Part shown: positions 538 through 40,436 of the stretch, in pieces
Position numbering within the stretch: position 1 is the first letter of the stretch
Layout of the letters: every line of letters begins with the position of its first letter
Virus record (IMG/VR): IMGVR_UViG_3300013233_000235
Coordinates: 124,001 to 188,000 of that record
Source of the DNA: a virus
Direction: 5' to 3' (one strand)
DNA length: 64,000 nucleotides
Notes under the pieces: model-generated
The model's database searches: none
What the model saw: only the letters and a program-made list of their open reading frames with translations
Told to the model about the DNA's origin: nothing
Translations under genes and position numbers: made by a program

Positions 538-575
538 GACTATATAACTTGTATGAAGAGACACTTTGATCTCTT
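538..575 (+). promoter_or_regulatory. Cassette promoter plus hairpin leader (class A, copy 1)
   Basis: Promoter core CTATATAACTTGTATG is followed directly by the stem AAGAGA (556-561), loop CACTTTGA (562-569) and TCTCTT (570-575). The gene starts at 595 after GAAAGGG. In this copy the ATG inside the promoter reaches a TAG after eight codons, so the leader is not translated into the downstream protein. Transcription start is not known; the hairpin would sit at or very near the mRNA 5' end if transcription starts around the ATG. Confidence 0.75.
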
Positions 576-594
576 ATAGTGAAAGGGTTTAATT

Positions 595-978
595 ATGAAT
601 GAAGAAATCACAGACGTGCTAGTGGCGCTATTAGGCACACTACGTGGCAAGCAACTGGTATTTAAAGCCGCCCCCCCGGACGATTTGCCAGAGACCCACG
701 ACGCGATGGGTGCAAACCCGGCATTCCAATTAACACTTCCCGGAGAGTTGTACGTAGCACTCCACCCAAAACGGTCCCCGGGGTCAGAGGGCTATGACTA
801 CGCGGTGGTATGGGATCGCATATCCGGTGATGATGATTGGCGGCGATGTGGGTCACTGTTGTTAAAAGAGGCCCCTGGGGTGGGAATCATATTTGGTGGC
901 CACTTGCTGATGGACGTGCCCCACAAAGTATCTGGCGATGGCCCGCAGAGACTCACACTTGTGGAGTTATCCCGATGA
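595..978 (+). CDS. hypothetical protein, first gene of a cassette (127 aa)
   Basis: A 127-residue protein. ATG 595 lies eight bases after GAAAGGG in the class A leader. The N-terminal helix is followed by a beta-rich segment with GELYVALHPKR and YDYAVVWD strands, similar in texture to the single-blade proteins of this phage. The stop overlaps the next start (ATGA at 975-978), so the two are translationally coupled. Function unknown. Confidence 0.75.
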   Translation: MNEEITDVLVALLGTLRGKQLVFKAAPPDDLPETHDAMGANPAFQLTLPGELYVALHPKRSPGSEGYDYAVVWDRISGDDDWRRCGSLLLKEAPGVGIIFGGHLLMDVPHKVSGDGPQRLTLVELSR

Positions 979-1574
979 AGGGTGGTACAGGGGATGCCTA
1001 CGAGGGGCGGTGGTTCGAACTCTCGACCCTGCGCCACCTAGTTAAAGCCTTTAAAGATAAAGGTATAACAGTGGCTTCATTGGGCTGGGCTGATACAGAG
1101 GGCAGTCTAAACCCTGATTTCGCATGTATGGCATCACCGATAGAATCCCCATGTGGTAAGATCACCACCGAGTCTCTGGAGTGGATATTGAGCAATACCA
1201 TCACCATGCGGTGCGATCGCGGGTTCGGCTCACAAGCCCATATTTGCACACAGCACGATGGGAAGTCACACATACTCAATTATGAGACGGATGGGCTCCG
1301 TACAGCCCGGCGGATATTTATGGATGACAGCACCGTTCTCGACTGCGCAAGATCTGGGGATGGTAGGCTATGGGTTATAACCCGCCGTGGGTTGTACAAG
1401 TTCTTACCAGATACATTTGGGTGGGGCAATGTGGGCACCCTAGTCGGAGAAGAATTCCCAGTATGTTGGGATATGGTTTCCTCGATGACGCCTACAGAAA
1501 CAGGTGTATCCGTTACGGGTTTCTCGGAGCTCATTGGTTGCGCCGGAGTACGTGTCAGCGCATCTGGCGAATAA
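975..1574 (+). CDS. beta-rich hypothetical protein, propeller-blade-like family (199 aa)
   Basis: Start placed at ATG 975, which overlaps the preceding TGA with GGAG upstream; the longer open frame lies inside the previous gene. The central WVITRRGLYKF segment matches WIITDLGAWLV in 28734-29471 and WVVTTQGVYKH in 31850-32392, so these three are paralogues. The repeated pattern (DGRLWVIT, then a turn, then a strand) resembles one or two beta-propeller blades. The protein is coupled to 595-978 and closed by a terminator at 1581. No enzymatic motif is visible. Confidence 0.72.
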   Translation: MKGGTGDAYEGRWFELSTLRHLVKAFKDKGITVASLGWADTEGSLNPDFACMASPIESPCGKITTESLEWILSNTITMRCDRGFGSQAHICTQHDGKSHILNYETDGLRTARRIFMDDSTVLDCARSGDGRLWVITRRGLYKFLPDTFGWGNVGTLVGEEFPVCWDMVSSMTPTETGVSVTGFSELIGCAGVRVSASGE

Positions 1575-1580
1575 TAAGTT

Positions 1581-1604
1581 AGCCCTTCGGGGCTTTCTTT
1601 TTTA
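1581..1604 (+). terminator. Rho-independent terminator
   Basis: AGCCC-TTC-GGGGCT hairpin followed by TTCTTTTTTA, then the conserved TTTATTTGTTTCCATACATT spacer that precedes the next promoter. Confidence 0.85.
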
Positions 1605-1623
1605 TTTGTTTCCATACATTCTT

Positions 1624-1663
1624 AGAACTATATAACTTGTATGAAGAGACACTTTGATCTCTT
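1624..1663 (+). promoter_or_regulatory. Cassette promoter plus hairpin leader (class A, copy 2)
   Basis: Promoter core CTATATAACTTGTATG is followed by AAGAGA (1644-1649), loop CACTTTGA and TCTCTT (1658-1663). An AGGAG Shine-Dalgarno then precedes the true start at 1680. The ATG in the promoter (1641) is in frame with the gene by chance and should not be used as its start. Confidence 0.8.
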
Positions 1664-1679
1664 GTATAGGAGTTTAGTT

Positions 1680-2486
1680 ATGAGCATACTTGATAAATAC
1701 TTAGGCAAAGCCTTGACGTGCCGCCGATCCACCTTAGTGGAATTCGATGCCAGAGTGCCGTATTACAGAGAATACGCACTGCCTAACGGGCAGGTGGTGT
1801 TTACGCATATTGTCGTAAACAGGGGGCCCAACGAGCTGGGTCACGGGGTTATACTCGGAGGGGCGGGCGGTGATATCATTAAGACGTTAGAAGAAAGTGA
1901 TGACCCTATCATCATGGCGGCTGTCGCCGCACCAACAGAAGGGTTGGATGTCATAATGTTTCGCCGGTATGTGATAGTAACTTTGCCAGGGGCCGTTGCC
2001 GAGCTATCAAAACTATTCTGTGAATACACAGACCCTGATGAGCTCAGTGTGGACCTGACCCCCATGGTAGTGGAATACCACGAGCTGCCACCGGTGTTAG
2101 CTAAGTACCACCCCAACAGTGTGCCAGGTAATACGTTTGAAAGGTACGCACATGGCAACTCATCCGGAGAAGAGCTGTACCTTATTGAAAACCCCGAAAG
2201 CGGTATGCGGGCCTTTGGGGTATACTCACAGGAACAAGGTAAATGGGTGGTGACAGAGGTGGCCCAAACACCTGGTGTGGAAGTCGACCCTATGGCGCAT
2301 GATGAGTGGTTCACCATCGGCCCAATCATGTTTAGACGTGATACACCACTGGGCGTACTAACAGCCACATGGAAAAAGTCTGAACTGGGGGTGTTAATCA
2401 AGCCCAACGGGTATGTGGAGCCAGCCACTGGTGATGATGCGCCAGTTGGCAAGTGCCCCGATGGTAACATGTTGACACGTATGTAA
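1680..2486 (+). CDS. hypothetical protein paralogous to 27820-28584 (268 aa)
   Basis: Start set at ATG 1680, seven bases after AGGAG, not at the in-frame ATG 1641 inside the leader hairpin. The segment LYLIENPESGMRAFG...GKWV aligns with YYIRDPENGVSLYE...GRWF of the protein at 27820-28584, so the two are paralogues. Both look like mixed helix and beta ORFans without catalytic motifs. This gene is a single-gene cassette between terminators at 1581 and 2493. Confidence 0.8.
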   Translation: MSILDKYLGKALTCRRSTLVEFDARVPYYREYALPNGQVVFTHIVVNRGPNELGHGVILGGAGGDIIKTLEESDDPIIMAAVAAPTEGLDVIMFRRYVIVTLPGAVAELSKLFCEYTDPDELSVDLTPMVVEYHELPPVLAKYHPNSVPGNTFERYAHGNSSGEELYLIENPESGMRAFGVYSQEQGKWVVTEVAQTPGVEVDPMAHDEWFTIGPIMFRRDTPLGVLTATWKKSELGVLIKPNGYVEPATGDDAPVGKCPDGNMLTRM

Positions 2487-2492
2487 TTAGTT

Positions 2493-2521
2493 AGCCCCGA
2501 TTAAGGGGCTATCTTTTTTAT
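2493..2521 (+). terminator. Rho-independent terminator
   Basis: AGCCCC-GATTAA-GGGGCT hairpin followed by ATCTTTTTTA. It ends the 1680-2486 cassette. Confidence 0.85.
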
Positions 2522-2540
2522 TTGTTTCACCCATGTGTAA

Positions 2541-2579
2541 GAACTATATAACTACTATGAAGAGGCACTTTGATCTCTT
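2541..2579 (+). promoter_or_regulatory. Cassette promoter plus hairpin leader (class A, copy 3)
   Basis: Promoter core CTATATAACTACTATG is followed by AAGAGG (2560-2565), loop CACTTTGA and TCTCTT (2574-2579). The last stem base has changed A to G, giving a G-U pair that keeps the stem. The promoter ATG is 40 bases from the gene start, so out of frame with it, unlike copies 1 and 2. Confidence 0.78.
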
Positions 2580-2597
2580 ATGTTGAAGGATGTTGAT

Positions 2598-3107
2598 ATG
2601 ACAATCATTGTAACAACAGTGGATAAAAAGGTGATAACTATGACAGGCGACGGCCGTGGGAGTCTGAGACAGATGGTGGTATCAGACCACTGTGTAAAGG
2701 TGCACCGCCACCATGATAGATTATACGGTTTCGCTGGATCTACGCAGGAGATAGACCAAGCCTTAAAGGTGTTACCATTTATACCGGACGGCGCTGCACC
2801 CGAGACTGTGGAAATGTTTTTGTCGCGGATATTGCAGGATAGCACGTGCATCACGGCAGCCTGGGTCAATGACAAACCCAGACTAGATAGATTCGGGCAT
2901 GGTAAAGCCCACCGCATCACCGACCGCGTGGATTTCTTGGGATCTGGAAGTCGTATGGGTATAGACCTGTTCACACCGACCCGGCTTCTCCACGACTGCA
3001 CTGCGGCAGAGGCGGCTGTAATTACTGTTAACACCGTGGGGCTTATACACAGCTCGTGCGGGGGTAGCACAACCACGGTACGCGTGGCACGGGAGGTTGC
3101 CAAATGA
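2598..3107 (+). CDS. Proteasome beta/HslV-like Ntn-hydrolase (169 aa)
   Basis: Start set at ATG 2598, eight bases after GAAGGA, giving MTIIVTTVDKKVITMTGDGRG. This resembles the N terminus of HslV (MTT-I-V... AGDGQ). After Met removal Thr1, Asp17 and Lys33 fall exactly at the catalytic positions of proteasome beta subunits. LYGFAGST matches the HslV GFAGGT strand, and FLGSGSRMG followed by a CTAAEAAV helix matches the GSG and helix region. Length is close to HslV (about 175). Such subunits form ring peptidases with N-terminal nucleophiles in the cytoplasm. No HslU-like ATPase is in the window. The stop overlaps the next start (ATGA), so the partner at 3104 is probably co-translated. Its role in infection is unknown: host protein turnover or virion processing are possibilities. 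Confidence 0.82.
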   Translation: MTIIVTTVDKKVITMTGDGRGSLRQMVVSDHCVKVHRHHDRLYGFAGSTQEIDQALKVLPFIPDGAAPETVEMFLSRILQDSTCITAAWVNDKPRLDRFGHGKAHRITDRVDFLGSGSRMGIDLFTPTRLLHDCTAAEAAVITVNTVGLIHSSCGGSTTTVRVAREVAK

Positions 3108-3712
3108 GGATGATAATCACCGATAACAGTGGTAACGGGGTTATAAAAATGGGCAGTCTAATAAAGACCGCTCCAACACACCCGATCGATCTGCCTGAAG
3201 ACATTATTAATGCAGATGGTGATGTTGAAGCCTATGGGGTTATCAGCTATGGTACAGGGTTAGCGTTAGAAGGCCTGTTGTCCGCACCTATCTCCGACAT
3301 CGATATAAAGGCCCTACCGGCTCCGGTGGAAACACATGACTGCTTTATCATGCATGGTCGGGATCGCACAGACCCACCAACCATGGTGTACAAGTTCCCT
3401 GGTAGCCGTGTCCACCATAGTCGCCTGGTTAGAAGGGGGGTTGCTATATACGGGGATGACCCGGATATTAGGTACCTGCGTAACATGGCCGTCATGGCCA
3501 CGAACCAAGTCACAGCACCTGGTAAGAATAAACCCACATTTGATGAGTGGTTGGGTATAGCGGCTATGTTTACATCCCGTGGTAGATATGGGGCCAACGT
3601 CATACATCGTGATGGTGGTGAGGTAACAGAGCTGTATTACTCAGATGCTTACTTACGTATAAAGGCCAACGAACTTATACTACGATCTGGTCTAAAGCCG
3701 ATCCTAGTATAG
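3104..3712 (+). CDS. hypothetical protein coupled to the HslV-like gene; possible degenerate Ntn-fold partner (202 aa)
   Basis: ATG 3104 overlaps the stop of the HslV-like gene. I do not recognise the family with confidence. The order of elements loosely parallels its neighbour: an N-terminal beta hairpin, a YGVISYGTG strand-turn, a GVAIYGDDPDIRYL segment, then a TFDEWLGIAAMF helix. It lacks Thr at position 2, so if it shares the fold it would be non-catalytic at the N terminus. The gene ends just before the strong terminator at 3722. The partner role is inference from coupling and layout only. Confidence 0.72.
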   Translation: MRMIITDNSGNGVIKMGSLIKTAPTHPIDLPEDIINADGDVEAYGVISYGTGLALEGLLSAPISDIDIKALPAPVETHDCFIMHGRDRTDPPTMVYKFPGSRVHHSRLVRRGVAIYGDDPDIRYLRNMAVMATNQVTAPGKNKPTFDEWLGIAAMFTSRGRYGANVIHRDGGEVTELYYSDAYLRIKANELILRSGLKPILV

Positions 3713-3721
3713 CAGCATAAG

Positions 3722-3756
3722 TAGACCCCCCGATTAAGGGGGTCTATTCTTTTTAT
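3722..3756 (+). terminator. Rho-independent terminator
   Basis: TAGACCCCC and GGGGGTCTA arms around GATTAA, followed by TTCTTTTTA. It closes the 2598-3712 pair. Confidence 0.87.
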
Positions 3757-3782
3757 GTAAATCTGGAATCAAGCATATCTCA

Positions 3783-3825
3783 ATGACATATAACTAAAAT
3801 GGATATAGGCGTTTTGACTTATATC
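3783..3825 (+). promoter_or_regulatory. Cassette promoter plus hairpin leader (class B, copy 1)
   Basis: Promoter core GACATATAACTAAAATGG shares ATATAACTNNNATG with class A. It is followed by the stem GATATAGG (3802-3809), loop CGTTTTGA (3810-3817) and CTTATATC (3818-3825). The stem sequence differs completely from class A, but it pairs over eight positions with one G-U. The 8-nt loop keeps the same CNNNTTGA form. A longer leader with CCAGGAG then leads to ATG 3855. Confidence 0.75.
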
Positions 3826-3854
3826 ACTATGGCTTAACAGCCAGGAGTTTTACT

Positions 3855-4172
3855 ATGAACATGTCCAAATTTGCTGGAAAAATGTACAGCGTAGCACCAG
3901 TGGATACCAACTCTTTACCACCCATGGTGGCAGATGCGGCAGCCAAGGCTGCAAGCATCGTAGAGCTGAAATGCGTAAGCCAGTCTTTGGACACCCCACT
4001 ATACGCTGTACACAGTGGTGACAGCGTCGAACTATTCTACCAAGGTTCTAACGAGATATTCTCGTTAGAACCACGCACCCCCAACGGTGATAATACCATA
4101 CGTTGGTGCATAGATGCACCATACGGCTTCCTCGTGTATGGGGATGGCCGTATAGTCATCCTGAAAGCATAG
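3855..4172 (+). CDS. hypothetical protein (105 aa)
   Basis: A 105-residue protein with ATG 3855 seven bases after AGGAG. The N-terminal third is Ala-rich and probably helical (PPMVADAAAKAASIVELK). The C-terminal two thirds are short strands ending in FLVYGDGRIVILK, the DG-turn strand pattern common to this phage's beta-rich ORFans. It is the only gene under the class B leader copy 1. Function unknown. Confidence 0.75.
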   Translation: MNMSKFAGKMYSVAPVDTNSLPPMVADAAAKAASIVELKCVSQSLDTPLYAVHSGDSVELFYQGSNEIFSLEPRTPNGDNTIRWCIDAPYGFLVYGDGRIVILKA

Positions 4173-4174
4173 AA

Positions 4175-4230
4175 TATACACGGGTAGGGCACTTCGCCCT
4201 ACCCGTGTATTCACATATTTTCTTTTTTTC
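4175..4230 (+). terminator. Terminator between convergent genes
   Basis: A long hairpin of ATACACGGGTAGGGC and its complement around ACTTC, followed on + by a T-rich run. It lies between the + gene ending at 4172 and the - helicase gene ending at 4235, so it may serve both. The T-run favours + termination. Confidence 0.8.
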
Positions 4231-4234
4231 TTTA

Positions 4235-5815
4235 CTACCAGGTTTCCTTTTCCCCACCTGTTATGGGTGTGACGTTAGCATCGCCGTATTGGTCGGCATA
4301 CTCATCGGCCCCATCATCCGCTACCTCTTCTTGTAAGTTGTATATCACGTTGGGGGTGGGTTCATGTATGTCGTCTATCAGCCCGCCAATCTCTTTGAGC
4401 TCATAACAGAAGTACTTATGTTTCTCGGGGGTGACATCCAGCCCACGATGCTTACCCCTACCGAAGTGTAGGTACTTACGACCAAGATGCTCATGGATGT
4501 GCAATACCCACTCTAGATCAAATTTCTGGTGTAGTGATTTGCTGTACTGGTAATACCCTTTGTTGGATACAGCTTTGGGCAGATTGTTGGTCCCCTCCCG
4601 CACTAGGTTCTGGGCCTCAGTGGATAACTGGTGAGCTGTTACCACGGTGATACCACGAGGGTATGTATGATTACGAAGAACCTGGAAGAGATCATTGATA
4701 GCCGCATCACGGCCATCACCACCGCCGGATACTTTAAACAACTGGGATAAGTAATCGATAACCAGTAAATGGATCTCATACCCTTCGGCTTCCAGTTCAC
4801 TTAACACATCCAGTAGGTGGTCGATGCTGAAAGAATTGGCCTCATAGAACAGCATCATGAACTCGTAACCATTCTCACCCAGCTTGCCAATTACGTACTT
4901 AGCGGCTTCTCTGGAGTTAACCGATCTTACATCCATCTTGACACCAGTCTCTGCTTCGATCATCTCCTTGTAAATTACAGGGAAATCTTGATCGAGCGTA
5001 TTCTCGAAACTGATCTTTAGAATAAGAGGTTTCTTCTTCTTATCCCACATGTGGGGTTTGTTATGGAGTGCCACCGATCTGGCTAGATAGTTCAGCATGA
5101 ACGACTTGTAGTTGTGAGATAGTGCGCCAACATTGACGAGCTCGCCCCGTCGCATGCCACCCACACCACACCCACGGTTAAAGCCAACTAAGCCTGTTTG
5201 CATAACCCCCTCAGAAGAATGGTTATCTTTAGACTTATCCAACACCTCAATAATGGAGTCTAGGTTGGACAATGTTAGCCTACCACCGAACCCTGGTTTC
5301 TCACCTGAATCCACATCGCCGGTGAACTCGGTTATCCCATCCTGCAAATCCTTTAACTCTTGGCGGTAGTCAACCTCCCCACTGCTATATCGTATCCGCT
5401 TGTTAACCTTGGAAACAACATCTTTAATACGTTCCTGCTTTAACTGGTAACGGAGTTCCCCAACAGTAGAGTTAATACGCTTGACACTTCTTTCGAGGTC
5501 ACACTCAACCATCAACATCCGTTCTAACTCTTTTACAACGGATGGGTTGTCCTTAAGATCAATACGCACCTTAGCCAGCAGATCATCCTTATCAAACTCA
5601 ACACTGCCGACTACACGCAGCATCCAATCTAACGCCGACTTTATGCTTTCACCGGCCAGGTAATCGTTATTCTCACCAAGCACACTAGCTGATAGCTCAA
5701 TGCGGTTAACTACTATTCGGATGGTATCAAGCTGGCGTTCCCACTTACCCTTTGTCTTAGATATAAGGTATACAGTGGACACACATTGCATTAGAACGAC
5801 GTAGGGGTTTCCCAT
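4235..5815 (-). CDS. Replicative DnaB-like (RecA-fold) DNA helicase (526 aa)
   Basis: The C-terminal half has the DnaB-type RecA core. GMRRGELVNVGALSHNYKSFM (about 220-240) carries the Walker A region; HLLVIDYLSQLF (349-360) is Walker B, as in DnaB IDYLQL; VVTAHQLS (391-398) fits the motif after it. The N-terminal 200 residues are helical with coiled-coil character and would correspond to the interaction domain. Walker A is unusual: the Gly before Lys237 is Tyr (S-H-N-Y-K-S). Such proteins form hexamers that unwind DNA at the replication fork. It is read away from the capsid region, behind a small membrane gene on the same strand. Confidence 0.85.
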   Translation of the reverse strand: MGNPYVVLMQCVSTVYLISKTKGKWERQLDTIRIVVNRIELSASVLGENNDYLAGESIKSALDWMLRVVGSVEFDKDDLLAKVRIDLKDNPSVVKELERMLMVECDLERSVKRINSTVGELRYQLKQERIKDVVSKVNKRIRYSSGEVDYRQELKDLQDGITEFTGDVDSGEKPGFGGRLTLSNLDSIIEVLDKSKDNHSSEGVMQTGLVGFNRGCGVGGMRRGELVNVGALSHNYKSFMLNYLARSVALHNKPHMWDKKKKPLILKISFENTLDQDFPVIYKEMIEAETGVKMDVRSVNSREAAKYVIGKLGENGYEFMMLFYEANSFSIDHLLDVLSELEAEGYEIHLLVIDYLSQLFKVSGGGDGRDAAINDLFQVLRNHTYPRGITVVTAHQLSTEAQNLVREGTNNLPKAVSNKGYYQYSKSLHQKFDLEWVLHIHEHLGRKYLHFGRGKHRGLDVTPEKHKYFCYELKEIGGLIDDIHEPTPNVIYNLQEEVADDGADEYADQYGDANVTPITGGEKETW

Positions 5816-5858
5816 TACTTATTATCTCTCGGTAATCCATTATTGTGGGGGGTGTGTA

Positions 5859-5981
5859 TTACTTTGTGTAGAACAGTTCGTGCATGTTGGGTAGTTCACC
5901 GTATACCATCCGATCGTTGTAGTAGCTTAATCCGGTCATCACTATAATTAGAAAGATAGCCAGTTTGATAAGTTTCCGCAT
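5859..5981 (-). CDS. small membrane or secreted peptide (40 aa)
   Basis: A short frame read on the - strand starting MRKLIKLAIFLIIVMTGLSYY. Positive residues are followed by about 14 hydrophobic ones, the pattern of a signal anchor. The remaining 20 residues are polar. AGGAA lies eight bases upstream of the ATG. It lies upstream of the helicase on the same strand. A lysis accessory or inner-membrane peptide is possible, but nothing in the sequence decides. Confidence 0.6.
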   Translation of the reverse strand: MRKLIKLAIFLIIVMTGLSYYNDRMVYGELPNMHELFYTK

Positions 5982-6023
5982 GTCCGTATTCCTGTAAGTT
6001 GGTCTATTCGATTAGGGGTGACA

Positions 6024-6098
6024 AGAAAAATAATGCTTACACTATGTATCACCCCCTACCACCCCTAGCGGATGTAGAAGAAAAATAATAATGATATG
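6024..6098 (+). promoter_or_regulatory. Candidate late-type promoter region upstream of the capsid genes
   Basis: Within the 310-base gap between 5815 and 6125, apart from the 40-residue frame, an AGAAAAATAAT direct repeat occurs at 6024-6034 and 6079-6089. Each copy is followed within about 10-15 bases by TATG. The second, AATAATGATATG (6087-6098), recurs on the - strand at 56963-56981 before a fibre operon (TTTTTAATGATATG). Both precede genes with strong codon bias, so a late promoter is plausible. phiKZ late promoters are reported to centre on TATG; the link here is inference. Confidence 0.4.
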
Positions 6099-6124
6099 AC
6101 CCCATTAGTAATGAGCGAATAGCT

Positions 6125-6625
6125 ATGAAAGTGTTATGTTTAAACGCATATACTACATTGCTCATAAGGGCCGAAGGTATCCAACTGGCTGACGTATTGG
6201 CCCCTGGGAAACTAGCAAACAGATTGTCCGAAGACAGGCTCTATGATCTGGACATGATTACGCGTAAGGTGTTGATGCAGCTAACGCAGAAATCCGGATT
6301 GATCCCCATCAAACCTTTACATGGTGCCAGCGATGGCGACCTGATTGGGTATGATTACGATAATGATGCTACGCCCTCGACCGACGACTTTCAAGGCTCG
6401 GAGATAGCTTACAATGGAGAAACGCTAATTATAGCATTTCCAAAGGAGTTCGATGTACACCCGAGTCGCCCCAGCCTGCATGATAAGCTGGCTTTTTATG
6501 AGCGAATAATGGTTGTCTGCACAGACCACTTGCGTTTGGCAGGCACCGTAGAATCCACGATCTTTGCCGAGTGGCACCGTATCACCGAAATGTTAACAAG
6601 GAATACCACCAATGTCAAGATATAA
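6125..6625 (+). CDS. hypothetical protein upstream of the major capsid gene (166 aa)
   Basis: A 166-residue soluble protein, mostly helical with a short strand block (GETLIIAFPKEF). It is first in the capsid transcription unit and overlaps the MCP start by 14 bases. I do not recognise the family. Position suggests a capsid-associated or assembly protein, but no motif supports this. Confidence 0.75.
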   Translation: MKVLCLNAYTTLLIRAEGIQLADVLAPGKLANRLSEDRLYDLDMITRKVLMQLTQKSGLIPIKPLHGASDGDLIGYDYDNDATPSTDDFQGSEIAYNGETLIIAFPKEFDVHPSRPSLHDKLAFYERIMVVCTDHLRLAGTVESTIFAEWHRITEMLTRNTTNVKI

Positions 6626-8774: not shown

Positions 8775-8793
8775 GTTGTAAGATAGCTGATAA

Positions 8794-8821
8794 ATAAGAG
8801 GAGGGTTTTGCCCTCCTCTTA
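8794..8821 (+). terminator. Hairpin after the capsid gene
   Basis: A 12-bp perfect stem ATAAGAGGAGGG-TTTT-CCCTCCTCTTAT without a long T-run. It could be a terminator or an mRNA 3'-end stabiliser for the capsid message. Confidence 0.7.
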
Positions 8822-8842
8822 TGCCGTAATCGGGCAAATGTC

Positions 8843-8862
8843 AGAACTATATAACTACTATG
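8843..8862 (+). promoter_or_regulatory. Cassette-type promoter without hairpin leader
   Basis: CAGAACTATATAACTACTATGA is the class A core, but the AAGAGA/TCTCTT hairpin is absent. The mRNA would begin with a short unstructured leader before TAGGAG. This shows that promoter and hairpin are separable modules. Confidence 0.65.
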
Positions 8863-8887
8863 AATACACCTATAGGAGTTTTTTAGG

Positions 8888-25815: not shown

Positions 25816-25856
25816 CAGAACCATATAACTACTATGAAGAGGCATCTTGATCTCTT
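25816..25856 (+). promoter_or_regulatory. Cassette promoter plus hairpin leader (class A, copy 4)
   Basis: Core CCATATAACTACTATG is followed by AAGAGG (25837-25842), loop CATCTTGA and TCTCTT (25851-25856). The loop differs from copies 1-3 yet keeps CNNNTTGA. TTGGAG lies before ATG 25873. Confidence 0.75.
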
Positions 25857-28676: not shown

Positions 28677-28717
28677 CAGAACTATATAACTTGTATGAAG
28701 AGACATCTTGATCTCTT
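28677..28717 (+). promoter_or_regulatory. Cassette promoter plus hairpin leader (class A, copy 5)
   Basis: Core CTATATAACTTGTATG is followed by AAGAGA (28698-28703), loop CATCTTGA and TCTCTT (28712-28717). TAGGAG precedes ATG 28734. Confidence 0.8.
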
Positions 28718-29936: not shown

Positions 29937-29977
29937 TAGAACTATATAACTTGTATGAAGAGACACTTTGATCTCTT
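29937..29977 (+). promoter_or_regulatory. Cassette promoter plus hairpin leader (class A, copy 6)
   Basis: Core CTATATAACTTGTATG is followed by AAGAGA (29958-29963), loop CACTTTGA and TCTCTT (29972-29977). A GAAGGA Shine-Dalgarno leads to ATG 29996. The promoter ATG is 41 bases from that start and reads into a stop. Confidence 0.8.
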
Positions 29978-29995: not shown

Positions 29996-30088
29996 ATGAG
30001 TAAAGTATGTAAGAACCCCACAGGCCCAAATGGCCGGGTTAGTTACGGACTCGCCCACGGTACCACCCTCTCCAACGAGCCACACTAG
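29996..30088 (+). CDS. small ORF at the head of the HTH operon (30 aa)
   Basis: A 30-residue frame starting MSKVCKNPTGPNGRVSYG at ATG 29996, with GAAGGA six bases upstream. It occupies the position where the first gene of a cassette normally lies, so it is probably translated. It is polar, with no membrane segment. It might be a leader peptide or a remnant of a longer gene. The next gene starts 13 bases after its stop. Confidence 0.5.
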   Translation: MSKVCKNPTGPNGRVSYGLAHGTTLSNEPH

Positions 30089-30101
30089 GGATAAAGGCGC
30101 A

Positions 30102-30731
30102 ATGACCAACCATAGGGTTAGCCCCAACTACACACCCCCAGCAACCCCGCTAGGCGATTATCTGCGTGCCGTCATGGCGCACCAGGATATAACCTGGAGG
30201 GGACTTTCCAATCGCGTGGGATGTACACCCATCTCATTGGCCGCCATCGCATCAGGTGAATCCCGCTTTCCGGATGTATCCCAAGAAAACCTTCTGATGT
30301 ATTGTAAACACGTTTACAAAGATAGGTTTTGTAAGGATGCTTGGCGCAGAGCTATGTCCGGCATACCAACGGGTAATAAGGAGGTGCACGCAGCAATGGC
30401 CACCCCTTTGGGGGACGCTATGCGGGAGTTCCGCCGAGAGCATGGGATCACCTATAGCCAGTTCGCCCGCATGTGTGGTATCAATCACACGTACCTGCGG
30501 TCAATCGAGCGTGGTAAAGTGAAACTTAGCTTTGCCAACGGCGTTTATATATCAAAAGGTATACGCGCCAATGGGGACCTAGATGTGGCAGCGACACGCC
30601 TACTTGATTTGGTGTCTAGCACCATGGTGCAACCCACTTACACGGATATGGCTATTAGAATATCCGCCCTTAATGAAACCAAACAACGCAGGCTTTCTGA
30701 CCTGCTACTTAAGTTGGAGACAGAGAAATGA
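30102..30731 (+). CDS. Double XRE-type helix-turn-helix protein (209 aa)
   Basis: Start set at ATG 30102 after AAAGG; the longer frame from 30030 overlaps the small ORF. Two helix-turn-helix units share the opening TPLGD: residues 15-72 (TPLGDYLRAVMAHQDITWRGLSNRVGC) and 101-155 (TPLGDAMREFRREHGITYSQFARMC...LRSIERGKVKLSF). The second is a textbook XRE motif. Internal duplication of the domain is clear. A transcription regulator, possibly of phage or host genes, is the most likely role. It overlaps the next HTH gene at 30728. Confidence 0.83.
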   Translation: MTNHRVSPNYTPPATPLGDYLRAVMAHQDITWRGLSNRVGCTPISLAAIASGESRFPDVSQENLLMYCKHVYKDRFCKDAWRRAMSGIPTGNKEVHAAMATPLGDAMREFRREHGITYSQFARMCGINHTYLRSIERGKVKLSFANGVYISKGIRANGDLDVAATRLLDLVSSTMVQPTYTDMAIRISALNETKQRRLSDLLLKLETEK

Positions 30732-31775: not shown

Positions 31776-31793
31776 TTGTTTCCATACATTCTT

Positions 31794-31833
31794 AAGACTA
31801 TATAACTTGTATGAAGAGACGCATTGATCTCTT
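31794..31833 (+). promoter_or_regulatory. Cassette promoter plus hairpin leader (class A, copy 7)
   Basis: Core CTATATAACTTGTATG is followed by AAGAGA (31814-31819), loop CGCATTGA and TCTCTT (31828-31833). A third loop sequence, still CNNNTTGA. TAGGAG precedes ATG 31850. Confidence 0.8.
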
Positions 31834-31849
31834 GTATAGGAGTTTAGTT

Positions 31850-34389: not shown

Positions 34390-34448
34390 CAAACAAATCT
34401 GGGTATACTACCCTAACTAACGCCGCAGATGCGGCAAGGATATTGACT

Positions 34449-35147
34449 ATGGAAAACCAAAGAATAGAAGCAGTTGAAACCAATGCGGCAATTTTAGAGG
34501 TCATGTTAAACTGCGGGTATGACCCCACCTACAGTCACGACATGGCCGCAGGCCGGGTGACATTGGCCGACGCGACATTGGCCCGCATACACGCGGAGGA
34601 CCACCGTATACCCGCCCCCCTCCGCCGTATTGTCGGCGGGATTGACGAGCTGGTAGATCAGGAGCTGAATAGATTGGGGCACACGGCGGTCTCAGTGGAA
34701 GCCAATCTTGGCAAAGGCCTATGCTATTGGGCCGGATGGAAATATAGGTATGTCAAAAGTGGTCAACGTATGTATCACGCACCAGCCCCCGTGGACATGT
34801 TGCTAGAGGCACACAGGATGTCTGGGGAGGCTGTGGATACCGGCTTACTGAAAGCCGTGCTCACAGTGGACGTATACAGCGACCGAGTGCAACGTATGGC
34901 TGTGGCGGCCACGATGTTCCGGACGGCCTACACACTGTCTCATCCAGAGATGGCTGTGGCTGTAGGGTTGGAAAGGCCCGAGCTAGGGCGCTACCTATGT
35001 ATGGGTGGGGATGAGTCGGGTGTACTGTTAGATGCGTCCAAGACGTTTTATCGGTACATGTGGACTCACCGGGTTAAGCTTGGCGAGCTCGTCCCCGACT
35101 GGCTCAACCCTGTTGATTTCAACAGCGCTTATGGTGAATCGATATGA
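34449..35147 (+). CDS. helical hypothetical protein of the array (232 aa)
   Basis: Start set at ATG 34449 after AAGGA rather than at the upstream ATG 34302, which lies inside the previous gene. The protein is helical; YTLSHPEMAVAVGLERPELGRYLCMGGDESGVLLDASKTF could be a helix-turn-helix. It overlaps the next gene as ATGA at 35144. Confidence 0.7.
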   Translation: MENQRIEAVETNAAILEVMLNCGYDPTYSHDMAAGRVTLADATLARIHAEDHRIPAPLRRIVGGIDELVDQELNRLGHTAVSVEANLGKGLCYWAGWKYRYVKSGQRMYHAPAPVDMLLEAHRMSGEAVDTGLLKAVLTVDVYSDRVQRMAVAATMFRTAYTLSHPEMAVAVGLERPELGRYLCMGGDESGVLLDASKTFYRYMWTHRVKLGELVPDWLNPVDFNSAYGESI

Positions 35148-35737
35148 ATGAGTTGCTGACGAAGGTCTTGGGTGACCGCCAGCTAAACTTGACCCCGTCT
35201 GAAGAGAGGGCTATTTATACACCCGGCGTCGGTATGAGCTGGATAAGTCTTGGCAGGATTATCACCAATAACCCCATCCTGATGGGGCAGGGCTATTACG
35301 CCCATCTGTCAGCTGTACACTGCGATCCAAAAACATGCGTGTTAGTGGGTGGGGATGAGATGTCTACGGCTCTGGCTATCTCGATGAAAGAGTTAGCTAC
35401 CTATGGTGATTCCACGTCATTGGATAACCATAAGTACTTCCTATCCAGGGGTGCCAAGCCTACTGGCATCATGGCGAGCTTGTGGATATACCACTTAGAG
35501 CGACATGGCATAACCAGTGCATCAGCGCTGTACAGAGAGGTGTATGGCCTAGATAAGCAACAGGCTAAGGCGGCGTGCGAGCTTGTCTGGGTGACCACCA
35601 TGCGTGGGAGGACGGTCAGCAGGATCGCCAGCTATGCGGGTTACCGCGCCAAAGAGGTTTCCCAACTATGGGTGGTTGGGGCAAAGTCGTCCAAGAAGGA
35701 TGAGGTAATCCACCGTTTACGGGAACTCATGGGGTAG
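35144..35737 (+). CDS. helical ORFan, 'SW / YGL' paralogue family (197 aa)
   Basis: GMSWISLGRIITNNPIL and ALYREVYGLDKQQAKAACEL mark the family. The C-terminal GRTVSRIASYAGYRAKEVSQLWVVGAKSSKKDEVIHRL has helix-turn-helix character with a basic end. It closes the longest operon of the region (31850-35737), followed by the terminator at 35758. Confidence 0.73.
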   Translation: MNELLTKVLGDRQLNLTPSEERAIYTPGVGMSWISLGRIITNNPILMGQGYYAHLSAVHCDPKTCVLVGGDEMSTALAISMKELATYGDSTSLDNHKYFLSRGAKPTGIMASLWIYHLERHGITSASALYREVYGLDKQQAKAACELVWVTTMRGRTVSRIASYAGYRAKEVSQLWVVGAKSSKKDEVIHRLRELMG

Positions 35738-35757
35738 TTAACCCCCAGAATAAAGTT

Positions 35758-35782
35758 AGCCCTTCGGGGCTTTCTTTTTTAT
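35758..35782 (+). terminator. Rho-independent terminator
   Basis: AGCCC-TTC-GGGGCT hairpin with TTCTTTTTTA at the end of the HTH-rich operon. Confidence 0.85.
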
Positions 35783-35800
35783 TTGTTTCCCTATATTCTT

Positions 35801-35840
35801 AGAACTATATAACTTGTATGAAGAGACACTTTGATCTCTT
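35801..35840 (+). promoter_or_regulatory. Cassette promoter plus hairpin leader (class A, copy 8)
   Basis: Core CTATATAACTTGTATG is followed by AAGAGA (35821-35826), loop CACTTTGA and TCTCTT (35835-35840). TAGGAG precedes ATG 35857. Confidence 0.8.
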
Positions 35841-35856
35841 GTATAGGAGTTTAGTT

Positions 35857-36444
35857 ATGAGCGATTTTCTGACACACAGGTGTCACATGTTAAGTACACG
35901 CACCACCACCGGGGGGTCCGAGATGACCACCATCGACGGCCTTGATCTACCACGGGCGGTTAACGTAGGCGGGCATATTGAGTTGAAGAGAGGGGGTGTT
36001 ACATATCGCACTGATAAGCATCCGCCTTGGAAGCCCTTTACAGTGTTGTCAAGCTCGGGACGCCACGCCAACGGGGTATTGTTGGAAATGCACTGCGGGT
36101 GCGATGGCACATACCCGTATGTCCTGTTTATCGATGGTCGGTGCCACGTACTAGGTAAACATTTTGGTGACATCCCAGAGAATGGTTGCGTGTTTGAACA
36201 GGGTCTCTGGATGTACGGCCATGGTCTTCTAGACTACCATGAGTCTGTGGTTATAGCCATCGGTGAGTACACCGGCACCAAACCTAAGCGGCAGCTCAAC
36301 TACAAGGTAATTGCAATGGATACCCCCAAACAAGAGTTCGTAATAGAGATTATACCCAATGCTGAAAATAGCATTGTGTATCAATTGCGGGTAACCCTGC
36401 CAGCGTGGGGTCCCCGCGCACAAGTGATACAACGCGTTAAGTAA
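35857..36444 (+). CDS. beta-rich ORFan, first of a tandem trio (195 aa)
   Basis: Start set at ATG 35857. YRTDKHPPWKPFTVLSS, LLEMHCGCDGTYPYVLFIDGRCHVLG and VFEQGLWMYGHGLLDYH are repeated in the next two proteins as VSQPYPLYH... and VTGPHPPYVML... VIVDKGGPVIMG... CEQRVWLHGLGHTDLH. So 35857, 36476 and 36904 arose by tandem duplication. Cys-rich beta strands, no catalytic motif. Confidence 0.74.
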   Translation: MSDFLTHRCHMLSTRTTTGGSEMTTIDGLDLPRAVNVGGHIELKRGGVTYRTDKHPPWKPFTVLSSSGRHANGVLLEMHCGCDGTYPYVLFIDGRCHVLGKHFGDIPENGCVFEQGLWMYGHGLLDYHESVVIAIGEYTGTKPKRQLNYKVIAMDTPKQEFVIEIIPNAENSIVYQLRVTLPAWGPRAQVIQRVK

Positions 36445-36475
36445 TACACACACGGTATATACCAGGAGCTTAATT

Positions 36476-36907
36476 ATGAAAAACGAACAAGCATTAAAAG
36501 ACAAATTGCTGTATGTTAAAGCGGAGTCCGTAAAAACGATCTCCTCCACGTTCGCCAATGGGGATCGTATCAGTCATCTGGAGGTGGACGGCATGCATAT
36601 CCAGGGGCTGGATGGGTCGTCCGACGGGCGGATCGGGTGGAGTGACGGCGTCAACACATGGGTGAGCCAGCCATACCCGCTTTACCATAAAGCGGTCGGT
36701 GGACCCCAACGCTGCGGTGGGGGGCACAACCACATTGGGGTTATACTCCGCGTAAGGGATGGTGGTAGACGTCATCGGCTGTGCCTAGTTTACCGTGGCG
36801 CTGTGTACTACACTGGCGGGCTGGTTAAGAAAACCGGTGATGACATCCTATTCAAGAACCTACTTTGGGTTGGTGGTGTGGGTCCACGGCCAGTGCCCCA
36901 GTCGTGA
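36476..36907 (+). CDS. beta-rich ORFan, second of a tandem trio (143 aa)
   Basis: CAGGAG precedes ATG 36476. The N-terminal helix (KNEQALKDKLLYVKAESVK) is followed by the shared module: TWVSQPYPLYHKAVGG, LCLVYRGAVYYTGGLVKK and FKNLLWVGGVG. It is shorter than its neighbours and ends with GPRPVPQS just after the shared FKNLLWV strand, overlapping the next gene as GTGA. Confidence 0.72.
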   Translation: MKNEQALKDKLLYVKAESVKTISSTFANGDRISHLEVDGMHIQGLDGSSDGRIGWSDGVNTWVSQPYPLYHKAVGGPQRCGGGHNHIGVILRVRDGGRRHRLCLVYRGAVYYTGGLVKKTGDDILFKNLLWVGGVGPRPVPQS

Positions 36908-37485
36908 GCCAGTCGGAGTGGATGACACCCTACCAATCATTCCTGATAAGTGTCTCCCCCCAACCCCCCGATGGTGACATTATCTGCATTGATGGGCATC
37001 CCCTGCCCAATATAGGGCGTGTCGGCAACGGGTTAACCCTGGACATATCCGGTGAGCCATGGGTGACGGGTCCCCACCCGCCGTACGTGATGCTCAATGG
37101 GGTGCCAGGTGGCATCGCCATCGTATTGGTGTTCCGATGTGATGATCTTGGCACGATGGTCATCGTTGATAAAGGCGGCCCGGTTATAATGGGGAGGTTA
37201 GTCAGGGAGGTCCCCGCGTGTGGTCCAAATGGCACAATTGTTTGTGAGCAGCGTGTGTGGTTACACGGCTTGGGGCACACCGACCTACACGGGCAGCTAA
37301 AGAAAGCCGTTAAATACACCCGGACGTGGGATGCGATCTGCATTAGCACAGCCAACGTCAAGTCTGAGTGGGTTATCACAGCCACCAGGGGTTGGCCCAC
37401 CAATCCCGACGTAGTGGATAACCCATGGGAGCCAACGTATCTGTGCCGTTGGGAAGATGCCCACTGGGCATTTGCACGTATGTAA
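36904..37485 (+). CDS. beta-rich ORFan, third of a tandem trio (193 aa)
   Basis: GTG 36904 overlaps the previous stop (GTGA); ATG 36919 with CGGAG just before it is an alternative. PWVTGPHPPYVMLNGVPGG, TMVIVDKGGPVIMGRLV and CEQRVWLHGLGHTDLHGQL are the shared module, longest here. The C terminus ends in WEDAHWAFARM. A terminator follows at 37492. Confidence 0.73.
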   Translation: MSQSEWMTPYQSFLISVSPQPPDGDIICIDGHPLPNIGRVGNGLTLDISGEPWVTGPHPPYVMLNGVPGGIAIVLVFRCDDLGTMVIVDKGGPVIMGRLVREVPACGPNGTIVCEQRVWLHGLGHTDLHGQLKKAVKYTRTWDAICISTANVKSEWVITATRGWPTNPDVVDNPWEPTYLCRWEDAHWAFARM

Positions 37486-37491
37486 TTAGTT

Positions 37492-37517
37492 AGCCCTTCG
37501 GGGCTTTCTTTTTTATT
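37492..37517 (+). terminator. Rho-independent terminator
   Basis: AGCCC-TTC-GGGGCT hairpin with TTCTTTTTTA, followed by the junction spacer before the ligase cassette. Confidence 0.85.
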
Positions 37518-37535
37518 TGCTTCCCTATATTCTTA

Positions 37536-37574
37536 AGCCTATATAACTTGTATGAAGAGACGCATTGATCTCTT
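37536..37574 (+). promoter_or_regulatory. Cassette promoter plus hairpin leader (class A, copy 9)
   Basis: Core CCTATATAACTTGTATG is followed by AAGAGA (37555-37560), loop CGCATTGA and TCTCTT (37569-37574). TAGGAG precedes ATG 37591. The loop matches copy 7, not copy 8, so loop type does not simply follow map position. Confidence 0.8.
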
Positions 37575-37590
37575 GTATAGGAGTTTAGTT

Positions 37591-39522
37591 ATGAGTGAAA
37601 GATATATCAGAGATCTGAGCCTTAAGTTACAGAGGTGGACAGATGCGTATGCAAGTGGCACCCCACTTGTGTCAGATAGTTTATACGATGCCGTCCATAA
37701 GGAGTTGGACAAAGCGGTCGGCGGATCGGCTGAGAAGTTCGTACCGCAGACCCTGACAGTGGCCACCACTGGTAAGCACCGCGTCCCCATGACCACTCTC
37801 AAAGATGTTTACACGATTGAGGATATTGGCAGATTCGTGAATGGTTTTCCAGAGGGTACCCGCTTTATAGCGGAGCCAAAGATGGATGGGATGGCTATCA
37901 GCCTAACATATGAAAACGGCGATCTGGTCAAAGGGTTAACCCGGGGTGATTATGTTAATGGGGAGCTCTGTACTGAATCCATCAGCTACGTCCCAAGCGT
38001 GCCTATAACACTCGGTCTGGATATCGATATGGAGGTTCGGGGTGAGCTTGTTGTTACCCACGAAAGCTTTACACCAGACATGGGTGTATCGCCACGCAAC
38101 TTTGCCGCAGGCAGCCTTATGAAGGGGGACCAAGAGCGGAACAAGCATCTAACGTTCATCCCATACGCTGTGACAGTGGCGCGCGGTGAATACGGGGAGT
38201 TAACAAGTCTGCACGACAAACTCATGTGGCTGGGGACCATCGGGTTCCAAACCAATCCGGCCAAGATACTGCTGGGCACCCGCGTACAAATCATCGATTG
38301 GATGAAGGATATGCATGAAAGTTGTGACCCGCAGGCACGGCCAGAAGCTTACATGTGCGCGATTGATGGGTTAGTGCTAAAGGTCGATGACTCTGAGCTG
38401 TTTGCCGACGCTGGTGGTACCAGCAAGCACCCCCACGGGGCGATCGCCTTTAAGTACAACTCAGCTAGCGCTGTCACCACGATCGTGGCTGTGGAGGAGT
38501 CTATGGGCCGCTTTGGCGAGATAACTCCAGTGGCTATCGTGGAGCCTGTGACCATCGATGGTAATGTGGTTACCCGTGCCACCCTCCACAACTACGCCAA
38601 GGTTCTAAGCAAGGGTGTATTCATTGGTGGGGAATGCGTACTGATGCGGGCAGGTGGTGTGATACCGGACCTGGTTGCTATGACGGAGAATGTTGACAAG
38701 TTGCCAATCGTATCCCCGCCATCTGTATGCCCAAGCTGTGGTGCCGCAACAATCGTCACCGCCGACCTTATCAACACCACCTGTAGTAGAGAAGACTGGT
38801 CGGAATGTAAGGCGCGTGCGGTGCGTACTGGGGCATACATCGTGTCTAAGAAGGTGCTAAATATACAGGGGCTTGGTGGAAAGACTATCGAGAAGTTGTA
38901 TGACCTTGGTGTCAAGTTAACCACCTTGCACCATGTGCTGACACTTTCCAAGGATGATCTGGTAAAGGCCGCAGGTAACGCTATGGGGAAAAAGGTATAT
39001 GACCGCATCCAGTCGGCGGCTGAGATGTCATGCCAAACATTCATAAAGGCCATGTGCATAAAGGAAATCGGCAACCATGCATCCGTTATATTGTCCGAGC
39101 ATGTGGGTCACCACCCCCAGGGTTTTCTCGACTTATCGGGGGAATCTATCGGGCTTATCAATGGTTTAGCCGAAGATGAAGTTGGGCATTTGGTGGAATT
39201 CTTTGGCGATACCGCGAGGCAAGCGGCGGCATGGCGTGGTCATGATCTGGTGACAGACCCTATGTCGCCTGAAGATGACCCCGCTAATAAAAACGCTGAT
39301 GAGTTGGTAGCTAGGTTCAGCAACGCTGGATTCGATACGTCTCACAAGGTGTGTGTAACCGGATCGTTTGAGGGTTGTAACCGCGATGATATTCACAAGG
39401 CCCTAAGCAACGCTGGGTTCACACCCACGAAATCAGCCAGTGCGAATACCGCCCTAATAGCCGGCGATAAACCGTCGGCATCAAAGGTGGATAAATCGGG
39501 CGCGATGTTCTGTGCGTTTTAA
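37591..39522 (+). CDS. ligA: NAD+-dependent DNA ligase (643 aa)
   Basis: Start set at ATG 37591 after TAGGAG. The N-terminal Ia-type segment (LVSDSLYDAVHKELD) binds NMN of NAD+. FIAEPKMDGMAIS holds the adenylation Lys97 in KxDG. An OB region follows. A Cys4 zinc finger begins CPSCGAAT and ends near TCSREDWSECK. Then come helix-hairpin-helix repeats (LNIQGLGGKTIEKLYDLG, AAGNAMGKKVYDRI) and a BRCT domain (HKVCVTGSFEGCNRDDIHKALSNAG). Length is close to bacterial LigA (about 670), only the BRCT end being short. It seals nicks during replication and repair. It is the sole gene of its cassette. Confidence 0.95.
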   Translation: MSERYIRDLSLKLQRWTDAYASGTPLVSDSLYDAVHKELDKAVGGSAEKFVPQTLTVATTGKHRVPMTTLKDVYTIEDIGRFVNGFPEGTRFIAEPKMDGMAISLTYENGDLVKGLTRGDYVNGELCTESISYVPSVPITLGLDIDMEVRGELVVTHESFTPDMGVSPRNFAAGSLMKGDQERNKHLTFIPYAVTVARGEYGELTSLHDKLMWLGTIGFQTNPAKILLGTRVQIIDWMKDMHESCDPQARPEAYMCAIDGLVLKVDDSELFADAGGTSKHPHGAIAFKYNSASAVTTIVAVEESMGRFGEITPVAIVEPVTIDGNVVTRATLHNYAKVLSKGVFIGGECVLMRAGGVIPDLVAMTENVDKLPIVSPPSVCPSCGAATIVTADLINTTCSREDWSECKARAVRTGAYIVSKKVLNIQGLGGKTIEKLYDLGVKLTTLHHVLTLSKDDLVKAAGNAMGKKVYDRIQSAAEMSCQTFIKAMCIKEIGNHASVILSEHVGHHPQGFLDLSGESIGLINGLAEDEVGHLVEFFGDTARQAAAWRGHDLVTDPMSPEDDPANKNADELVARFSNAGFDTSHKVCVTGSFEGCNRDDIHKALSNAGFTPTKSASANTALIAGDKPSASKVDKSGAMFCAF

Positions 39523-39538
39523 ATAGCAGTATAAAGTC

Positions 39539-39568
39539 AGCCCCGATTAAGGGGCTTTCTTTTTTATT
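39539..39568 (+). terminator. Rho-independent terminator
   Basis: AGCCCC-GATTAA-GGGGCT hairpin with TTCTTTTTTA after the ligase gene. Confidence 0.86.
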
Positions 39569-39584
39569 TGTTTCGCCCATATGT

Positions 39585-39625
39585 CAGAACTATATAACTA
39601 CTATGAAGAGACACTTTGATCTCTT
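39585..39625 (+). promoter_or_regulatory. Cassette promoter plus hairpin leader (class A, copy 10)
   Basis: Core CTATATAACTACTATG is followed by AAGAGA (39606-39611), loop CACTTTGA and TCTCTT (39620-39625). TTGGAG precedes ATG 39642. Confidence 0.8.
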
Positions 39626-39641
39626 ACTTTGGAGTTTAGTT

Positions 39642-40325
39642 ATGAGTAAAGTAAACGTAGATGTAACCCCCGCGATGGTAGAAACCTCATTAGCGGTATG
39701 CCTGTCCCGGAATGGTGGTACCAGTGTGCGGGAGTTTGTCGAAAAGACCAGCGCCTACTGGAAAGCCATCTTGACTGAAGAGGCTGGGGAGGTGCTGTGC
39801 GAATTGGGCATAAAGCCCTGGAAACCTCTTAAGAAGGTGAACGCACTGCTGGAATGCGCAGACTTGTATTACACGTTACTGGCTGCCGCACACCAGCCCG
39901 GCTCGGGGGTAGGTAACGTGTACGAATCCGTGGCAGATTGGATGTCGGCACCACCGCGCGATGACATCCCCGAGGGGTTGGTTGACAAAGGCCTCACGCT
40001 GGTACACGTGGCGTCAGATCCGATGAGTACGGTCGCCGACAAGTTGGGGGAGACCGCCATGATAATGGTGGCGATCCTCAAACAGTTGGGGTACTCCCCC
40101 GCCGACATGCTTGGGGCGTTCAAATGGAAGAACGCATTGGTAGAACGACGGTACGAGTTTACACCGACAACTGATGGGAAGGTCGTTATCTACAACAGCG
40201 GGGTGATGTCCGATGATACCGCGCTGGGCCACATCATCCGTGAGCGGGATCTCGCGATGGATCTCCATAAACCATACATGGAGATGTGCGGGGAGATCCG
40301 CAACCGTCTGGCACCTGTAAAATAG
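39642..40325 (+). CDS. dUTPase-2/MazG-like all-alpha NTP pyrophosphatase (227 aa)
   Basis: Start set at ATG 39642. ILTEEAGEVLCELGIKPWKPLKK and ALLECADLYYTLLAAA have the E-x-x-E and E-x-x-D metal-binding helices of the dimeric dUTPase/MazG family, including the GxKPWK turn seen in dUTPase-2. GAFKWKNALVERRYEF carries the K-x-x-N-x-x-R motif. The enzyme would hydrolyse dUTP or another dNTP to the monophosphate in the cytoplasm and so shape the nucleotide pool, together with the dTMP kinase. It is the only gene of its cassette. Confidence 0.75.
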   Translation: MSKVNVDVTPAMVETSLAVCLSRNGGTSVREFVEKTSAYWKAILTEEAGEVLCELGIKPWKPLKKVNALLECADLYYTLLAAAHQPGSGVGNVYESVADWMSAPPRDDIPEGLVDKGLTLVHVASDPMSTVADKLGETAMIMVAILKQLGYSPADMLGAFKWKNALVERRYEFTPTTDGKVVIYNSGVMSDDTALGHIIRERDLAMDLHKPYMEMCGEIRNRLAPVK

Positions 40326-40334
40326 CAGCATAAG

Positions 40335-40368
40335 TAGACCCCCTATTAAGGGGTCTATTCTTTTTATG
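40335..40368 (+). terminator. Rho-independent terminator
   Basis: TAGACCCC and GGGGTCTA arms around CTATTAA, with TTCTTTTTA. Very similar to the terminator at 3722, which also precedes a class B leader. Confidence 0.86.
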
Positions 40369-40392
40369 TAAATCTGGAATCAACGTATTTTC

Positions 40393-40436
40393 AATGACAT
40401 ATAACTAAAATGGATATAGGCGTTTTGACTTATATC
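40393..40436 (+). promoter_or_regulatory. Cassette promoter plus hairpin leader (class B, copy 2)
   Basis: Core GACATATAACTAAAATGG is followed by GATATAGG (40413-40420), loop CGTTTTGA and CTTATATC (40429-40436). It matches the copy at 3783 over promoter and hairpin; the distal leader varies by a few bases. Thus terminator, promoter and leader form one duplicated block. Confidence 0.78.

Follow-up and report, generated by a model that had tools for sequence, protein, structure and literature searches.

Nearly all early messenger RNAs (mRNAs) of an uncultured phiKZ-related jumbo phage appear to begin with a short hairpin whose pairing is kept while its sequence changes. The hairpin follows early promoters in a 64,000-nucleotide stretch of DNA (the window; positions 124001-188000 of the 204,041-base virus record IMGVR_UViG_3300013233_000235), to which all coordinates refer unless they are given as those of the record. 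What varies least is its position at the very 5′ end, the sequence, the loop and the length of the stem being variable, and a counterpart recurs at the chimallin (nucleus shell) genes of most other phages checked. We tentatively read the element as a 5′-terminal structural shield on early mRNAs that would delay both the removal of pyrophosphate and the entry of RNase E. Position, repetition, paired changes and the recurrence at chimallin genes are seen in the sequences; the start sites in this phage and any effect on decay are what we infer.

A pattern search of the whole record for the strict early promoter, ATATAACTNNNATG, found 30 copies on one strand only, and another four promoters are degenerate. 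The core form, TATATAAC-TNNNAT-G, comprises an AT-rich box near -10, six nucleotides and G+1, an exact fit to the early type used by virion RNA polymerase (vRNAP). The early promoter of AR9 is AAATATATATTAT-(6N)-G, and in AR9, phiKZ and phiR1-37 early transcription starts at a G some 6 nt beyond the AT-rich box (PMC5312081, PMC7598289). TATATWAY-(6N)-G showed a strong one-strand bias in most of the named relatives (phiKZ 29:2, PhiPA3 18:1, 201phi2-1 26:2). Because the promoter form matches the mapped early promoters of the phiKZ group, we place +1 at the G of the ATG that closes the core; this G is the likely first base of the transcript, the stem would run from +2 and that ATG would not be the start codon of the mRNA. 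The original prediction that the hairpin is the very 5′ end of the mRNA is thus well supported by homology with the AR9, phiKZ and phiR1-37 starts.

The window holds 10 class A hairpins (AAGAGR, an 8-nt loop, TCTCTT) and two of class B, at the positions at which the original prediction had put them; the class A pattern gives 18 matches in the window, both strands counted, against 0.01 expected. In the whole record there are 21 class A and five class B hairpins, all on the + strand. The statement that the stem directly follows the promoter ATG proved true of all 12 copies in the window and of all 26 in the record. The promoters and hairpins of the window are as follows.

542..555, + strand, vRNAP-type early promoter core ATATAACTTGTATG, predicted +1 = G555 (PMC5312081)
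556..575, + strand, class A hairpin AAGAGA-CACTTTGA-TCTCTT
1630..1643, + strand, early promoter core, predicted +1 = G1643
1644..1663, + strand, class A hairpin, loop CACTTTGA
2546..2559, + strand, early promoter core, predicted +1 = G2559
2560..2579, + strand, class A hairpin, AAGAGG stem with G-U closing, loop CACTTTGA
3788..3801, + strand, early promoter core ATATAACTAAAATG, predicted +1 = G3801
3802..3825, + strand, class B hairpin GATATAGG-CGTTTTGA-CTTATATC
8849..8862, + strand, early promoter core without 5′ hairpin (exception)
25823..25836, + strand, early promoter core, predicted +1 = G25836
25837..25856, + strand, class A hairpin, AAGAGG stem with G-U closing, loop CATCTTGA
28684..28697, + strand, early promoter core, predicted +1 = G28697
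28698..28717, + strand, class A hairpin, loop CATCTTGA
29944..29957, + strand, early promoter core, predicted +1 = G29957
29958..29977, + strand, class A hairpin, loop CACTTTGA
31800..31813, + strand, early promoter core, predicted +1 = G31813
31814..31833, + strand, class A hairpin, loop CGCATTGA
35807..35820, + strand, early promoter core, predicted +1 = G35820
35821..35840, + strand, class A hairpin, loop CACTTTGA
37541..37554, + strand, early promoter core, predicted +1 = G37554
37555..37574, + strand, class A hairpin, loop CGCATTGA, upstream of a NAD-dependent DNA ligase gene
39592..39605, + strand, early promoter core, predicted +1 = G39605
39606..39625, + strand, class A hairpin, loop CACTTTGA
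40399..40412, + strand, early promoter core ATATAACTAAAATG, predicted +1 = G40412
40413..40436, + strand, class B hairpin, loop CGTTTTGA
40865..40878, + strand, early promoter core without 5′ hairpin (exception)

The AAGAGG stems at 2560 and 25837 stay paired through G-U, as had been claimed for these variants. That there are two unrelated stems was an undercount, the number being at least three: classes A and B are indeed unrelated, and a third stem with such a loop, GGTAG-CACATTGT-CTACC, lies at record 83190 behind a degenerate early promoter at record 83174. Given the predicted start, no more than about two 5′ bases would be left unpaired, the stem running from +2 in classes A and B and from +1 in the third type and in the chimallin leader described below. 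A hairpin of at least 6 bp with its outer pair at +2 was present in 20 of the 25 record leaders scanned. Four strict promoters in the record lack a class A or B element; leaders without a clear 5′ hairpin are those at record 132849 (window 8849), 164865 (window 40865), 78521 and 121919, the leader at record 62741 has a small hairpin only, and that at record 44019 has a different, longer hairpin starting at +5. Rfam gave no matches above the gathering score in the window.

For a test of pairing, the eight class A variants, class B and the third stem were aligned and compared with 500 shuffles. All pair cells form standard pairs (100%) and five pairs are altered on both sides, a result matched in none of the 500 shuffles, although with three stem types from one record it represents few independent events. 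Slid versions of the same alignment were at most 61% paired. Together with paired changes in an independent genus, these five double changes uphold the claim that pairing rather than sequence is kept. The loop consensus is CRYNUUG(A/U), in which the C at position 1 faces an invariant G, and position 2, without exception A or G, faces an invariant U; the C1-G7 and R2-U6 pairs may extend the stem by two, leaving a triloop with one bulged base. RNAfold gives this closure for the AAGAGG and third-type sequences only. Of the loop ends first described as C...TTGA, the C and TTG are kept, and the last base is A or T (U rather than A in the third type), so that CRYNTTG(A/T) is the better description.

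Several family matches place the phage. It encodes a phiKZ-type capsid protein (phrog_3231, E 1e-80), a subunit of a multisubunit RNA polymerase (phrog_2943, E 7e-117) and a replicative helicase that also matches a phiKZ-group family, and tblastn gave matches in 101 and 239 phage records, with distant ones in many phiKZ-like phages. A chimallin gene lies at about 70.8-72.7 kb of the record (phrog_4795, record 71476-72681, E 2e-20). Used as a single query, phiKZ chimallin missed it but the family profile found it, and its open reading frame of 640 aa was also recovered by iterative profile search. These matches point to a phiKZ-related, probably nucleus-forming, jumbo phage. The search turned up no named phage that is closely related; the most similar contigs have 44% identity in the polymerase protein, and a capsid-protein scan of viral contigs gave no match.

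At record 70739-72733 the chimallin gene itself stands behind a degenerate early promoter, and its leader folds from +1 (GATAA, inner GC-ACAA-GC, TTATC). We compared this leader with those of 15 other phages, setting +1 by the promoter motif, with a few promoters placed by eye. Twelve of the 16 minimum-energy folds open with a hairpin that pairs base +1, and in a thirteenth, Eowyn, +1 is paired only irregularly. Mean pairing of +2 to +4 was 0.79, compared with 0.44 in shuffled leaders (z 4.4; Fisher p 2e-6), a p-value made optimistic by the relatedness of some phages and by the eye-placed promoters; the leaders are mostly unrelated in sequence. Exceptional or unclear leaders are those of G004, Noxifer, PhiPA3 and Eowyn, and the Yong hairpin runs from +2. 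In Pseudomonas phages the chimallin leaders also have a second palindrome (CTTGATCAAG or TTGATCAAG), which lies after the 5′ hairpin and before the ribosome-binding site.

As far as we searched, the loop motif seems private to this phage, with the proviso that the viral collection searched may exclude close relatives of this record. A broad promoter-plus-loop pattern gave scattered single matches in viral contigs, with no hairpin of at least three pairs among those checked; a stem-plus-loop pattern matched 93 stretches, the ones listed having a single match each; and a pattern of promoter, loop and partial stem had no match. Behind the TATATWAC promoters of 50 related contigs the loop formed no family, with three isolated matches, two of them identical in sequence. 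The nearest relatives have CCTATATTAC early promoters without a repeated hairpin. Two of them, G001 (63162) and G002 (9435), share a 5′-terminal hairpin, GCATAC-N7-GTATGC, with one loop base changed, apparently at one locus.

Other early leaders do carry hairpins in the same place. Of 93 taken from eight other phages, 11 open between +1 and +3 with a perfect hairpin of 6 bp or more, compared with 1.4 in shuffles and 1.7 at other offsets. Over all early leaders, 5′-end pairing is in excess in this record (z 3.8) and in Moabite (z 2.0). In the Serratia phages of the genus Moabitevirus, whose promoter regions are closely similar, Moabite has a stem of the AAGGGTA/TACCTTT type around GAAGTAA, and the same loop sits on TATCCA/TGGGTA in BUCT660 and on TATCCG/TGGGTA in Yaphecito. 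One orthologous leader reads TAGGAT-ACAA-ATCCTA in BUCT660 and TAGAGT-ACAA-ACTCTA in Totoro, so that two pairs differ on both sides while the loop stays the same, though with two sequences the shuffle control is weak (125/500). An automatic count over all Totoro and BUCT660 leaders, blurred by gapped alignment, gave 97 unchanged pairs, 11 one-sided changes, 3 double and 16 broken. We therefore claim apparent covariation in Moabitevirus for individual leaders only. The constant loops (GAAGTAA, ACAA and GTAA types) on altered stems in these early leaders form an independent parallel. 

The course of events that we envisage under the shield explanation is as follows. The injected virion RNA polymerase would start at the G of ATG, and the first 20 or so nucleotides would fold on emerging, leaving one or no 5′ base unpaired. 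An RppH-type host pyrophosphohydrolase would thereby be deprived of the single-stranded 5′ end it requires, and RNase E of its 5′ landing point; the B. subtilis RppH requires at least two unpaired 5′ nucleotides, and the ompA and papA mRNAs are stabilised by 5′-terminal stem-loops (PMC3997798 and its references 92-95). The result would be longer-lived early mRNAs, with the ribosome-binding site a few bases 3′ of the hairpin. Selection on the pairedness of the 5′ end would let stems drift by compensatory change and differ among cassettes and phages, and class A copies would have multiplied along with terminator-promoter cassettes bearing small early genes.

The cassettes can be seen in the sequence. 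Most class A promoters have the same terminator-like repeat and spacer upstream, one example being the following.

489..515, + strand, terminator-like inverted repeat and T run (GCCCC..GGGGC-TTTCTTTTTT), read from the sequence; a repeated motif

Terminator and leader k-mers each occur about 15-20 times, on one strand. Small genes lie downstream of most class A copies, and the majority of those scanned match no family; the early gene at 2580-3107 weakly matches the family of the HslV peptidase (phrog_1040, E 4e-8). Genes on the - strand of the window (for example at 47-62 kb) have no strict early promoter among the 30 of the record. Class A promoters (for example at 552-555) also have TATG at -3 to +1, which is the phiKZ late-promoter motif (PMC4666361), where class B promoters have AATG, and class A genes might be read by both phage polymerases. 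In class B leaders a second hairpin, GGCTTAACAGCC, lies directly 5′ of AGGAG (3826-3850 and 40437-40470).

Protection from 5′-dependent decay fits best among the three roles first proposed, because the stem opens at +1 or +2, a position that is preserved in the wider group although the sequence is not. The case is one of position, repetition and paired changes and not of stability, and several observations weigh against it. Class A hairpins reach -5.2 kcal/mol, z 0.4 against shuffles of their own leader and so not above chance, whereas class B gives -14.1 for the whole leader (z -2.4). A CRYNUUG loop shared by three stems is unnecessary for simple shielding, and when class A is folded over a longer stretch, part of the region around the start codon is paired to coding sequence. 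Several Moabitevirus hairpins begin at +4 to +6, which leaves 3 to 5 free 5′ bases. The early leaders of phiKZ, Eowyn, Yong, G001 and pEa54, when pooled, have no excess of 5′-end pairing, and for this reason the hairpin is common for chimallin and in some lineages and is not a rule for all early genes of the group. The proposal of translational control of all cassettes was too strong, as no 5′ hairpin follows several of the early promoters here.

The shared loop brings in the main rival of the shield, in which a phage or host RNA-binding protein reads the hairpin through its loop (CRYNUUGA, with the bulged base) for translation control, ribosome targeting or the export of early mRNA out of the early infection vesicle. 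Such a protein, one of the roles first proposed, is a possibility here because three unrelated stems share the loop, and it could perhaps act in addition to the shield. The Moabitevirus GAAGTAA loop on unrelated stems agrees with it, the gene 43 operators of T4 and RB69 are a precedent for loop-conserved RNA operators (PMC3014915) and nucleus-forming phages possess an mRNA-binding protein, ChmC (PMC12908238, PMC13282480). We nevertheless consider it doubtful, given the near absence of the motif from the 50 related contigs, the several different loops within Moabitevirus, the lack of any loop common to the chimallin leaders and the chance that the A, B and third-type loops merely share descent. 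A narrower version, a lineage-specific address tag whose loop is read by a phage RNA-binding protein and marks early mRNAs for vesicle export or priority translation, is unlikely. We think it also rather unlikely that the hairpin insulates translation initiation, by keeping the ribosome-binding site free of pairing with the leader or by acting as a standby site: it does end a few bases upstream of the Shine-Dalgarno stretch, and the second class B hairpin lies just before AGGAG, but an insulator would not need a stem start at +1 or +2, and the class A start region is still partly paired once coding sequence is included.

The fixed placement relative to the promoter could also mean a signal in DNA, either a section of the vRNAP promoter that is transcribed first or a dyad that acts as the operator of a repressor protein binding DNA; the phiKZ late polymerase requires downstream sequence (PMC4666361), and a helix-turn-helix protein is encoded at 30030-30731. 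An operator is improbable because the G-U pairs of the AAGAGG copies and class B preserve the RNA stem while breaking DNA symmetry; the three stem types moreover have wholly different half-sites, and four strict promoters are without the A or B element. Least probable, and to our minds very much so, is a passenger without selection on structure, carried by duplicated terminator-promoter cassettes and kept alike by recombination. The upstream unit and the repeated k-mers speak for it, and cassette copying does explain the sameness of class A, but not why B, the third type and the chimallin leader have stems unrelated to it, why stems stay fixed while loops vary, or why double changes occur in Moabitevirus orthologues. 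A leader peptide from the upstream ATG (MKRHFDLL...) was rejected: codons 4 and 5 change with the loop, the frame closes immediately 3′ of the stem in several class A copies and the class B peptide is unrelated.

A 5′ hairpin on early jumbo-phage mRNAs seems to be unreported, which falls short of proven novelty. In the full-text literature, which leaves subscription papers such as the original phiKZ transcriptome outside its scope, we found no paper linking phiKZ with hairpin, leader and transcription start site, and neither a review of jumbo phages from 2026 nor one of nucleus-forming phages from 2025 mentions a hairpin. The element bears on how nucleus-forming phages preserve, export and translate their first mRNAs, and whether these carry a built-in 5′ shield or tag. 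A 5′ hairpin kept in its pairing, and present again at the chimallin gene of most phages examined, offers a concrete and cheap test of that idea, and may provide compact 5′ elements that are portable and of use in expression work.

The PeSL cassettes of T4-type phages, reportedly described by Arbiol et al. in 2010 as mobile regulatory cassettes, are said to resemble the present ones as units of terminator and early promoter among small early genes; their stem-loop is said to be the terminator, whereas here there is an additional leader hairpin after the start site. Gene 10 and other class III transcripts of T7 carry a 5′ stem-loop, likewise immediately after a phage polymerase promoter, but with a single-subunit polymerase, late genes, a GGGAGA start and no common sequence. 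The vRNAP early promoters of phiKZ, AR9 and phiR1-37 share the AT-rich box, the six nucleotides and G+1, and in phiKZ and several relatives the one-strand distribution; the box here is TATATAACT, and the literature examined mentions no leader hairpin for theirs. The T4/RB69 gene 43 operator is similarly a leader hairpin that lies 5′ of the start codon and has conserved loop bases, but is bound by DNA polymerase at one gene and is not 5′-terminal on many. Also comparable are the ompA and papA stem-loops of Emory, Bouvet and Belasco, in which the stem likewise lies no more than one or two bases from the 5′ end and upstream of the ribosome-binding site; in contrast to these, the hairpin here is found on most early genes of one virus, its stems have changed by compensation, class A is weak and stabilisation is a prediction.

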